Assembly (NCBI RefSeq): GCF_020179605.1 | Contig: NZ_JAINZO010000001.1 | Location: 558,001-622,000, forward strand | Direction: 5' to 3' | Length of the DNA: 64,000 nucleotides | From: Geomonas agri | GTDB taxonomy: Bacteria > Desulfobacterota > Desulfuromonadia > Geobacterales > Geobacteraceae | Shown: positions 43,908 through 46,023 of the stretch, piece by piece | How positions within the stretch are numbered: position 1 is the stretch's first letter | How the letters are laid out: each line of letters starts with the position of its first letter | Position numbers and translations under genes: made by a program | Notes under the pieces: model-generated | The model's input: only the letters and a program-made list of their open reading frames with translations | What the model was told of the DNA's origin: nothing | The model's database searches: none

Positions 43908-43932
43908 CTGGCAGTTGTTCGAGATATACCTG

Positions 43933-43963
43933 AAAAGGCGAGAGATCCTCTCGCCTTTTCCTT
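43933..43963 (+). terminator. Rho-independent terminator after gcvH
   Basis: AAAAGGCGAGAG and CTCTCGCCTTTT are perfect 12-base arms around ATC, followed by CTTTT. It ends the accB-accC-gcvH unit. Confidence 0.93.
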
Positions 43964-43973
43964 TTCCGCTAGT

Positions 43974-43996
43974 CCCTCTCCCGGAGGGAGAGGGGA
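43974..43996. repeat. Half copy of the REP-like element before mqnA
   Basis: CCCTCTCCCGGAGGGAGAGG plus GGATG is identical to the right end of copy A at 5292-5407. Only this end is present. Confidence 0.65.
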
Positions 43997-44064
43997 TGTT
44001 GACGTTTGTGGCACAAGGTCATGTCAGTCTGGTTCTTCTGCCGCAGCCTTATCTGGAGTTTTCA

Positions 44065-44886
44065 GTGACCATCAACATAGGACACATCAAGTACGCGAAC
44101 TGCACCCCCATCTTCACCGCTCTCGCTTCCCATTTCGATTGCACCGGTTACCGCTTCGTTGACGGCGTCCCGGCACGCCTGAACGCCATGTTGCGCGCCG
44201 GCGAGATCGATCTCAGCCCTTCCTCCTCCATCGAGTACGCCATGGCGCATGAGCAGTATTGTCTGCTCCCGGAGCTCTCCATCAGCGCCATCGGTCCCGT
44301 GAAAAGCGTGTTCCTCTTCTCCCGGGTCCCGATCGAGGAACTGGATGGCGCTGCCATAGGGCTTACTGCGGAGTCTGACACCTCGGTGAACCTGTTGAAA
44401 GTGCTTTTGGCCAGGAAGTACGGCTTCGCAAACAGCTTCGAGCGGACCACGCTGCCGCTCGCCCAGGCGCTGGAACAGTATCCCGGCTTGCTGCTGATCG
44501 GCGACGCCGCGCTGAAAGGGGCCGCTTCCGGTTCCGGGTTCTTCTGTTACGACCTTGGTGCACTGTGGCACGAGTTCACCGGGCTTCCCTTCGTCTTCGC
44601 CCTCTGGATCGTGCGGCGCGAAGCGGCGCAGGAGAAGCAGACTGAACTGGCGGCGCTCGCCCATGACCTGGTGGCGGCGAAGAAACTCGCCTACGCAAGC
44701 TACGCCGAGATCGCTGCGCAGTGCGAGGAGCGCGCCTGGTTGAGCGAGGAGGCGCTGGTGGACTACTGGCAGACCATCTCGTACGAGCTGACCGACGCGC
44801 ACCTCGAAGGGGCGCGGCTGTTCTTCAGGCACGCCTTCGAGATGGGGCTCATTCCGAGCCTGCCGGAGTTGCGGTTCTTCAAATAG
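44065..44886 (+). CDS. mqnA: Chorismate dehydratase MqnA
   Basis: First step of the futalosine route to menaquinone: chorismate to 3-[(1-carboxyvinyl)oxy]benzoate. About 273 residues of the periplasmic-binding-protein-like fold, without a signal. Family motifs: GHIKYANCTPIF at the N-terminus, VPARLNAMLRAGEIDLSPSSSIEYA, GLTAESDTSVNLLKVLL and LLIGDAAL. I chose GTG at 44065, with GGAG 6 bases upstream, because the longer frame runs through a terminator and a REP half copy. Menaquinone is needed for anaerobic respiration in this group. Confidence 0.93.
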   Translation: MTINIGHIKYANCTPIFTALASHFDCTGYRFVDGVPARLNAMLRAGEIDLSPSSSIEYAMAHEQYCLLPELSISAIGPVKSVFLFSRVPIEELDGAAIGLTAESDTSVNLLKVLLARKYGFANSFERTTLPLAQALEQYPGLLLIGDAALKGAASGSGFFCYDLGALWHEFTGLPFVFALWIVRREAAQEKQTELAALAHDLVAAKKLAYASYAEIAAQCEERAWLSEEALVDYWQTISYELTDAHLEGARLFFRHAFEMGLIPSLPELRFFK

Positions 44887-44902
44887 ATGGGGCAGATGGA
44901 GA

Positions 44903-45488
44903 CGGTGGCAACTTTTGGGGGGACAATTTCACCTCAGTGGCGATTTCGCATTGTTTCTCTGCGAGGAAATCACCTCAGGTGTGTTGAAAAAAAAACCCTG
45001 CGAGTTGAACTCACCTCTTTGCATTTGAAATCCAGGTCAGTGGCGGTTTCGAATTCTTTACGCGTGGCAATTCACTTGAAGTGCGTTTAAAAAAATCTTT
45101 CCAAGTGTTGAACGCAACTCTCCGCATTTCAAACTTAAGTCAGTGGCAGTTTCGAATTCTTTCTGTGGGGAAACTTCACTTGCGGTGCGTTTAAAAAATC
45201 TTTGCTGGCGTTTAACGCAACTCTCTGCATTTCAAACCAGGGTCAGTGCTGGTTTCGCAATCTCTCCGTGCGGAAATTTCACTTTAGGTTGTTTAAAAAA
45301 AACTTACCGCGCGTTTTACGCAACTCTCTTCGTTTCAAACTCATGTCTGTAGCGATTTCGCTCTGTTCCGTGCCGAAATTTTCACTTTACGGTGCATCAA
45401 AAAAATCTCTCCGCTGTTAAACGCAACTCTCTGCCTCTTGAAATCAAGTCGGTGGCGATTTTGCGTTCTTTTCGACGTTAAATCTCTC
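44903..45488. repeat. Tandem array of five ~103-bp non-coding units
   Basis: Units begin at 44934, 45037, 45140, 45243 and 45346; each is 103 bases by my count, and a truncated sixth begins at 45449. A degenerate fragment precedes the first. Units share blocks TTTCG, TTCACTT, a TTTAAAAAA run, CGCAACTCTC and TTTCAAAC, but differ widely elsewhere. At the same offset in each lies an 11-base dyad: GAGTTGAACTC (45002), GTGTTGAACGC (45105), GCGTTTAACGC (45208), GCGTTTTACGC (45311), CTGTTAAACGC (45414). GC is about 41% in the second unit against 60% or more in the flanking genes. 103 is not a multiple of three, so no protein repeat is encoded. It lies between the 3' ends of mqnA and the NUDIX gene. 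Confidence 0.93.
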
Positions 45489-45936
45489 CAGCTTCTTTTT
45501 TCCTGCGGTAGTCCGACAAAATTCGTGCATGGTCGAAGCAGAGCGGCTGGGGGAGGGCATCAATGGGGAAGATGGCGAAGGCCGCCGCGTCGTCACCTGC
45601 CTTCGGCGTGCCGGTGGCCTTGGCGACGTAGACGGTCGAGATGTTGTGGCTGCGCTTGTCGCGGGTGGGATCCGAGTAGCATCCCAGCAGCCTCAAATCC
45701 TTCTCTGCCAACTCTACCGAAATCTCCTCCTGTATCTCACGCACCGCCGCGTGCTCCAGCGTTTCCCCGTAGTCGACGAAGCCGCCGGGGATGGCCCAAC
45801 CGAGGGGCTCGTTCTTACGCTCGATTAGCACGATCCCTTCCGGGAGTTCCACGATCACGTCAACAGTCGGCAGCGGATTCTTGTACTCTTTCACCTTGGC
45901 CCCGCAGGCGGGGCAGGCCAGGAAGTCGAAAGGCAT
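45478..45936 (-). CDS. NUDIX hydrolase with N-terminal zinc-ribbon-like pair
   Basis: 152 residues. The N-terminus has CPACGAKV, half of a possible zinc ribbon, then the NUDIX fold with the box [20 protein letters not shown] (GX5EX7REUXEE). NUDIX enzymes cut nucleoside diphosphates linked to another group; this type resembles ADP-ribose or NADH pyrophosphatases, but the substrate is not fixed. GGAGG lies upstream of the ATG. The stop codon lies inside the truncated last unit of the 103-bp array. Confidence 0.92.
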
Positions 45937-45965
45937 CGGGTACCTCCAGTTCTAGGATTGTGGGT

Positions 45966-45995
45966 AAAAAAAAGGGAGGACCTGAGTCCTCCCTT
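45966..45995 (-). terminator. Terminator of the PxxKW gene
   Basis: AAGGGAGGAC and GTCCTCCCTT form a perfect 10-base stem around CTGA. Read on the minus strand it runs into eight T residues. It separates the PxxKW gene from the NUDIX gene downstream. Confidence 0.92.
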
Positions 45996-46023
45996 CTTAG
46001 GGTACAGCAAAATACGGTGGGTA

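Follow-up and report, generated by a model that had tools for sequence, protein, structure and literature searches.

A 103-bp tandem array of Geomonas agri belongs to a class of two-turn repeat arrays associated with one family of proteins in a few genera of Geobacteraceae

The tandem array analysed in the present work lies in a 64,000-bp stretch of the Geomonas agri genome (the window; C1:558001-622000 of our genome G000; L, G, and C codes denote loci, genomes, and contigs). It belongs to a class of arrays in which the period is kept and the sequence is not: the monomer of about 20.5 bp corresponds to about two turns of B-DNA, and in a few genera of Geobacteraceae the arrays are linked to one protein family. 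This link points to an unrecognised element made up of a gene and its array, whose two-turn base period the window array shares. The features of the window are the following:

44934..45488, T-rich strand +: tandem array of five 103-bp higher-order units and a truncated sixth (TRF, alignment, Fourier analysis, monomer stack)
44934, 45037, 45140, 45243, and 45346: unit starts, with the truncated sixth at 45449-45488 (alignment)
45002..45012, no strand assigned: dyad GAGTTGAACTC of unit 1, 5/5 pairs (pairing count; moderate covariation, position chosen post hoc)
45105 (4 pairs), 45208 (5), 45311 (4), and 45414 (3): dyad equivalents in units 2-5
43915..44886, strand +: gene for an MqnA-type menaquinone biosynthesis protein (PF02621), left flank, heading into the array
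45478..45936, strand -: NUDIX hydrolase gene (PF00293), right flank, heading into the array

The 3' end of the NUDIX gene overlaps the truncated sixth unit. The first-pass annotation had described five units and a truncated sixth with a period of exactly 103 throughout, and TRF (45004-45461, period 103, 4.4 copies), the alignment, and a pattern scan agree on this; the scan recovered the starts 44934, 45037, 45140, 45346, and 45449, and the start at 45243, a variant word, rests on the alignment. When the units were aligned and checked for unequal periods, all the starts were 103 bp apart, and the compensating one-base shifts that had been proposed appeared as one-base gaps inside the units, with the spacing of 103 kept. 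The identity over the ten unit pairs averages 64% ungapped and 72% gapped, and the match at lag 103 is 0.66 versus 0.26 in shuffles (z 18). Furthermore, the Fourier spectrum peaks at 20.6 bp with a power of 14.6 (maximum among 30 shuffles, 3.75), and the matches at lags 21, 41, and 62 lie above those of shuffles (z 5.0, 6.2, and 4.9), the monomers being just 36-38% alike at these lags. According to the spectral peak and the lag matches, five monomers of about 20.5 bp make up each higher-order unit of 103 bp, a sub-period that the first-pass annotation had overlooked.

Loci encoding a relative of the flanking mqnA product were found in Geomonas species, in one Citrifermentans, and in one MAG, with a best-segment identity of 73-93%. 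The genus set comprised 19 genomes, in three of which the slot between mqnA and the NUDIX gene was left unscored, the NUDIX gene being unrecognised there. An array occupies the slot in 10 of the 16 scorable same-genus genomes, and the other six have a short gap; hence, the array is not missing from this locus in all the relatives. Among the named loci, no array was detected in the gap of G. paludis (L015), G. limicola (L013), Citrifermentans bremense (L012), and the MAG (L011). Both the sequence and the unit length (82, 102-103, or 122-123 bp) differ between genomes, as in the following slot arrays:

G. propionica (L006): unit of 103 bp
G. anaerohicana (L007): unit of 123 bp
G. diazotrophica (L014): unit of 123 bp
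G. azotofigens (L008): unit of 82 bp
G. edaphica (L009): unit of 102 bp
G. oryzae (L010): units of 205 and 102 bp

A base period of about 20.5 bp is common to these arrays of unlike sequence and unit length. The first eight arrays tested (seven slot arrays, including that of the window, and L002, the second array of the own genome) all have a peak at 20.4-20.8 bp; the 10.2-bp harmonic exceeds the 20.5-bp peak in L007, L009, L010, and L014, and the tallest peak in L002 is that at 12.9 bp. Once stacked at the base period, the slot arrays display a loose core near TT-n-AA and mostly a T-rich tract half a period off. The earlier proposal of a fixed period with a changing sequence was therefore borne out, since the period persists across species and loci and the sequence does not. 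The related statement that the array is not a plain duplication fits the same comparative data.

A blastn search of the own genome with the window array returned, besides that array, four weak matches (E 0.37 to 8.3); the one at E 0.37 revealed a second array at C1:2179 kb, at a distance of 1.58 Mb from the window. Two profiles were used: the sequence-only R1 combined units from the two sites and detected arrays in 6 of 19 genomes, and R2 was built on 11 units of the mqnA/NUDIX slot alone. R2 recovered the second-site array of the own genome with 44.0 bits (E 3e-12) and those of G011 (45.5 bits), G013 (39.9), G005 (26.4), and G018 (25.4), mostly over the full unit. On these profile matches, the window array is homologous to the array that adjoins one family member 1.58 Mb off in the same genome, and the two share their unit phase. 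At E 1, R2 did not retrieve the arrays of seven other own-genome members or those of the two other orphans; thus, for most arrays no relationship can be demonstrated at the sequence level. The second site adjoins the 3' end of one gene wherever gene and array were both seen; its few identified neighbours are MCP, AraC-type, and ArsR-type genes. By eye, an inverted repeat of the CCCCCTTTGCGAAGGGGG type was noticed between gene and array of the second site at L117:7530-7580, L116:7385-7420, and L002:1808-1850.

The second-site gene codes for a protein of about 223 residues with a sub-threshold fn3 match, and none of the family proteins tested matched a Pfam or NCBIfam family above the cut-off. 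The AlphaFold2 model of this protein (pLDDT 86.9, pTM 0.51) has helices within residues 17-110 and a beta sandwich at 134-222; the 50 Foldseek matches listed for it look, by their titles, like fn3-domain receptors and muscle proteins (best E 6.5e-5). The helical part of a member without fn3 was also modelled (pLDDT 77.8, pTM 0.66), and the helical domain had no match in the PDB (best E 1.0). The members of the family have a predicted helical domain, usually together with an fn3-like domain. Its weak matches, namely those to the Pfam families fn3 and PF16656 and those of 7 of 17 members to a minor-tail-protein PHROG (best E 2e-4), fall in the fn3-like part, where shown. The isoelectric point is at least 8.0 in 16 of 17 family proteins. 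One family protein (L148) had no match among plasmids and phages, and of 18 pattern matches found in viral contigs, none encodes a relative; a mobile or viral origin was rejected on this absence of the queried proteins from plasmids, phages, and viral contigs.

With profile A5, the family was found in all 19 genomes of the genus, with 7 to 15 matches each; with A6, it was found in 22 of 141 genomes of the order, belonging to 4 of 29 genera. The matches amount to 206 in the genus (E 1e-5) and 207 in the order (E 1e-10), with up to 17 per genome. In the phylum sample, which is thin and in which at most seven candidates per genome were scored, the family occurs in 1 of 395 genomes, the own genome alone.

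About two fifths of the roughly 207 loci (81) were scanned, chosen by rank and genome and hence not at random. Two loci at contig edges were dropped, and the remaining 79, from 21 genomes, are not independent, as they include orthologues. An array lies 3' of the gene in 59 of them and only 5' in nine, while 11 have none; the gene end was taken as the end of the profile match, a few bases from the stop in most cases. By the same rule, 9 of 240 random ORF 3' flanks (naive ORFs of the own genome only) were positive (Fisher 5e-37); four of these nine correspond to the family arrays of L043 and L233, reached via ORFs nearby, and a further one to the orphan L247. The spectral rule favours periods of 19.6-21.6 bp; 47 of the 59 3' arrays are supported by TRF and 12 by the spectrum alone. 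In the own genome, 10 of 12 family members have an array, two of them by the spectrum alone. The product of the L233 gene has no fn3 domain and shares 48-49% identity with two further fn3-less members. At L253, a weak family match (E 4e-4), a 43-bp array lies 130 bp downstream of the ORF.

As measured by TRF, the 3' arrays have a median length of 331 bp (range 94-608), and the median distance from the gene to the array start is 193 bp (range 92-1068). At 39 of 44 loci, a hairpin of 7 bp or more lies between gene and array; the control was made for longer stems instead, and a search within 120 nt for stems of 10 bp or more was positive at 54 of 80 family loci versus 23 of 150 controls. The arrays found 5' with none 3' (L185, L189, L192, L195, L204, L211, L217, L219, and L222) may belong to a neighbouring or lost copy. 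Three arrays run to contig ends (L115 in G011:C28, L119 in G001:C7, and L130 in G001:C13), so that assemblies may break in such arrays, some of which may extend beyond the part seen.

TRF, which favours no period, detected 56 arrays at the family loci (47 of them 3'), with a best base period of 20.6 bp and a vector strength of 0.93. Fifty-two of the 53 periods up to 126 bp fall within n x 20-21.5 bp, the exception being 55 bp (33 of the 112 integers from 15 to 126 fall there); three longer periods (142, 146, and 208 bp) are little informative on multiples. The array sequences differ from subfamily to subfamily and the periods are constant. No general motif is common to 61 arrays, with some short words enriched (CGCGA in 12, GCGAC in 10); alignment A3, whose chunks were cut ignoring the unit phase, was too poor for use.

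In 1.264 Mb of the own genome (27%), five such arrays were found: the window array, L043, L233, L054:7664-8109, and L247:17683-17920. L043 and L233 adjoin family genes; they were flagged in the sampled stretches first, and the genes beside them were recognised later. L054:7664-8109 (G000:C2, about 1.4377 Mb) repeats a 21-bp unit containing AACGCGTT 21 times, and a family gene was not recognised within 2.5 kb of it. L247:17683-17920 (G000:C2, about 1.2827 Mb) is a 42-bp array that, by eye, lies directly 3' of an AraC-like gene, and no neighbouring family gene was seen. The profile searches of the whole own genome gave no family hit in C1:558001-622000, nor a family gene within 1.5 kb of the window array. 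Hence orphan arrays exist, and that of the window is one of them.

A sixth candidate, L021 (21 bp), was set aside as coding, as it lies in a 394-aa ORF with Pro-Ala repeats. Arrays of 21 bp can remain open in several frames; the one at L043:5899-6369 gives a long open frame with RDLLVRG repeats and might be annotated as a protein. Since 41, 82, 103, and 122 are not multiples of three, a coding reading of the class was rejected. The sampled stretches also contain longer repeats, at L022:18992-20000 (300 bp) and L229:13224-14991 (222 bp).

An 11-base dyad had been placed at the same offset in each unit, with its symmetry under selection. All five positions are present, but the dyad is perfect in just two of the five units (5, 4, 5, 4, and 3 of 5 pairs). 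Perfect 11-base dyads number four in the window array versus 0.47 ± 0.68 in shuffles. In the 103-bp subfamily (the 15 units of alignment A2), dyad pairs fill 78.7% of the cells versus 25-58% when the position is slid, and the covariation score was reached by 4 of 500 shuffles, the dyad position for the count having been picked post hoc. The covariation hints weakly at selection on the dyad; against it stand that post hoc choice and 32 other arrays with short units, in which dyads are not above shuffles (Fisher p 0.80). At this level, the dyad was rejected as the common feature of the arrays. The second block that had been assigned to every unit, GAAATTTC, is clear in unit 4 and present as a one-base variant in unit 5, but is degenerate in units 1-3.

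The first-pass annotation had suggested a spaced array of protein-binding sites, and this agrees with the comparative data, in which the period outlives the sequence. Our tentative preference is for a helically phased row of protein sites, derived from the gene-plus-array element, the window array being an orphan copy of this class of arrays. The class usually takes the form of a chromosomal gene followed shortly by a strong hairpin and then by direct repeats with two turns per monomer (20-21.5 bp), which typically span 240-430 bp. The constant period would place one site per monomer on the same helix face, and many copies of a protein might load side by side on these sites, forming a nucleoprotein patch that could serve as a tethering, silencing, or copy-sensing platform. 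The loading protein would most simply be encoded by the linked gene, or else be a partner protein; the high isoelectric point of the members lends slight backing to the former. The site sequence would be particular to each locus and would change along with the protein of that locus, and a locus-specific sequence is what is expected if protein and array change together. The window array, lying between convergent genes, may also limit read-through.

Several observations stand against this reading. The helical domain has no recognised DNA-binding fold (best E 1.0 in the PDB) and the rest of the protein is fn3-like; the window monomers, at 36-38%, are poorly alike for identical sites; 11 of 79 family loci are arrayless, and the arrays of the window, L054, and L247 lack a recognised family gene; the dyads are not general, and most arrays have no demonstrable sequence kinship.

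Bacterial satellites are usually seen as neutral or as strain markers, and the main rival, which we consider rather unlikely, is such a neutral satellite: a repeat of about 20.5 bp beside an expanding gene family would travel along with it without function, turning over through slippage and unequal exchange, with its period inherited or set by the mode of repeat copying. The fast turnover of the sequences, higher-order units of four, five, and six monomers that resemble satellite evolution, and the existence of both orphan arrays and arrayless family loci (11 of 79) would all suit it. It accounts less well for arrays of unlike sequence that hold 20-21.5 bp, for a slot array kept in 10 genomes despite changed sequence and unit length, and for a window unit that stays at 103 despite internal one-base shifts.

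It is improbable that the arrays act through sequence-independent mechanics, that is, through whole-turn repeats whose bends sum coherently and attract a nucleoid protein or gyrase. Any two-turn repeat is coherently phased, and the predicted bend (dinucleotide parameters, 60 shuffles per array) has z >2 in 21 of 47 arrays; however, it is not above this value in the other 26, and in the window array it is not higher than in its own shuffles (z -0.7). Curvature as a common function was thus rejected as not general, and such mechanics would leave the link to one gene family unexplained.

Still less probable is a terminator or insulator halting transcription from both the convergent genes. mqnA and the NUDIX gene do converge on the window array, and the arrayless L012, L013, and L015 have, by eye, an ordinary GC hairpin and T-run in the gap. 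On the other hand, terminator-like sites at 44700-46000 are at chance level (2 found versus 2.5 expected), at the second site a hairpin of the family gene comes before the array, which in two genomes is found directly upstream of an AraC-type or ArsR-type gene.

A repeat RNA cut into units, such as a sponge RNA or one resembling an antitoxin, seems hardly credible: tandem units next to a gene for a small protein resemble type III toxin-antitoxin loci, in which structured RNA repeats lie 5' of a ToxN-type toxin gene, but the arrays studied here are mostly 3' of the gene and behind a hairpin, and PADLOC gave a single, unconvincing match (1 of 17 members, E 0.04). The repeated small RNA of the first-pass annotation likewise found no support: RNAalifold on 15 units gave no consensus structure, the fold energies of 300 bases of the window array matched those of shuffles on either strand (z 0.03 and 0.23), Rfam had no match in the window, no promoter-like site was found, and terminator-like sites were at chance. 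A structured RNA was rejected on the three empty results from Rfam, RNAalifold, and two-strand folding.

Among known systems, iterons are direct repeats of about 20-22 bp at plasmid origins, spaced by whole turns, beside a small Rep initiator gene. The arrays resemble them in having direct repeats at whole helical turns (base period 20.5-20.6 bp) with a small protein gene adjoining; they differ in being chromosomal, with up to 17 family matches per genome and a sequence that changes by locus. In addition, the family proteins tested have no Rep-like family or fold match (by fold just fn3), and the neighbours of the window array are MqnA and NUDIX genes, unlike an iteron-Rep replicon. A partition centromere is bound by a protein of its own and goes with a ParA-type ATPase, and the centromere sopC of plasmid F consists of 43-bp tandem units; here too the array is 3' of a small protein gene and many arrays measure 41-43 bp, but no partition ATPase was seen among the few second-site neighbours identified, and one chromosome holds many unlike arrays. 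CRISPR loci, which consist of near-identical repeats split by unrelated spacers, share the regular tandem organisation of the window array, whose units are instead 64-72% alike over their full length, with no unique spacers. REP/BIME are dispersed palindromic units of one sequence; the window array is likewise intergenic, between convergent genes, with imperfect dyads, but blastn on the own genome found no dispersed one-sequence copies and its folding is at chance.

In a relative, the Geobacter bemidjiensis genome, families of intergenic direct repeats of 6 to 42 nucleotides have been described, as well as fn3 genes near GEMM riboswitches that possibly code for surface proteins (PMC2996986). 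These multicopy intergenic sequences are alike in being intergenic direct repeats, but the part of that report available to us gives neither a base period nor a link to a gene family. In our literature searches, we recognised no report of a gene-linked 20-21-bp array in these bacteria, although the supplement of PMC2996986 may list some.

It is possible, although we put this forward more hesitantly than the row of protein sites, that these data outline a new bacterial element, made up of a small helical (often fn3-tailed) protein and a private two-turn array, with up to 17 unlike copies per chromosome in a few genera of Geobacteraceae. Selection would then act on the helical phase and not on the sequence, each protein would follow its own array, and the orphans would act in trans. 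The number of helical turns in each repeat is a physical constant common to dozens of arrays whose sequences are unlike. Their position beside one gene family makes two points testable: whether the cell selects the phase of sites independently of their sequence, and whether that phase may be read by a protein without a recognised DNA-binding fold.
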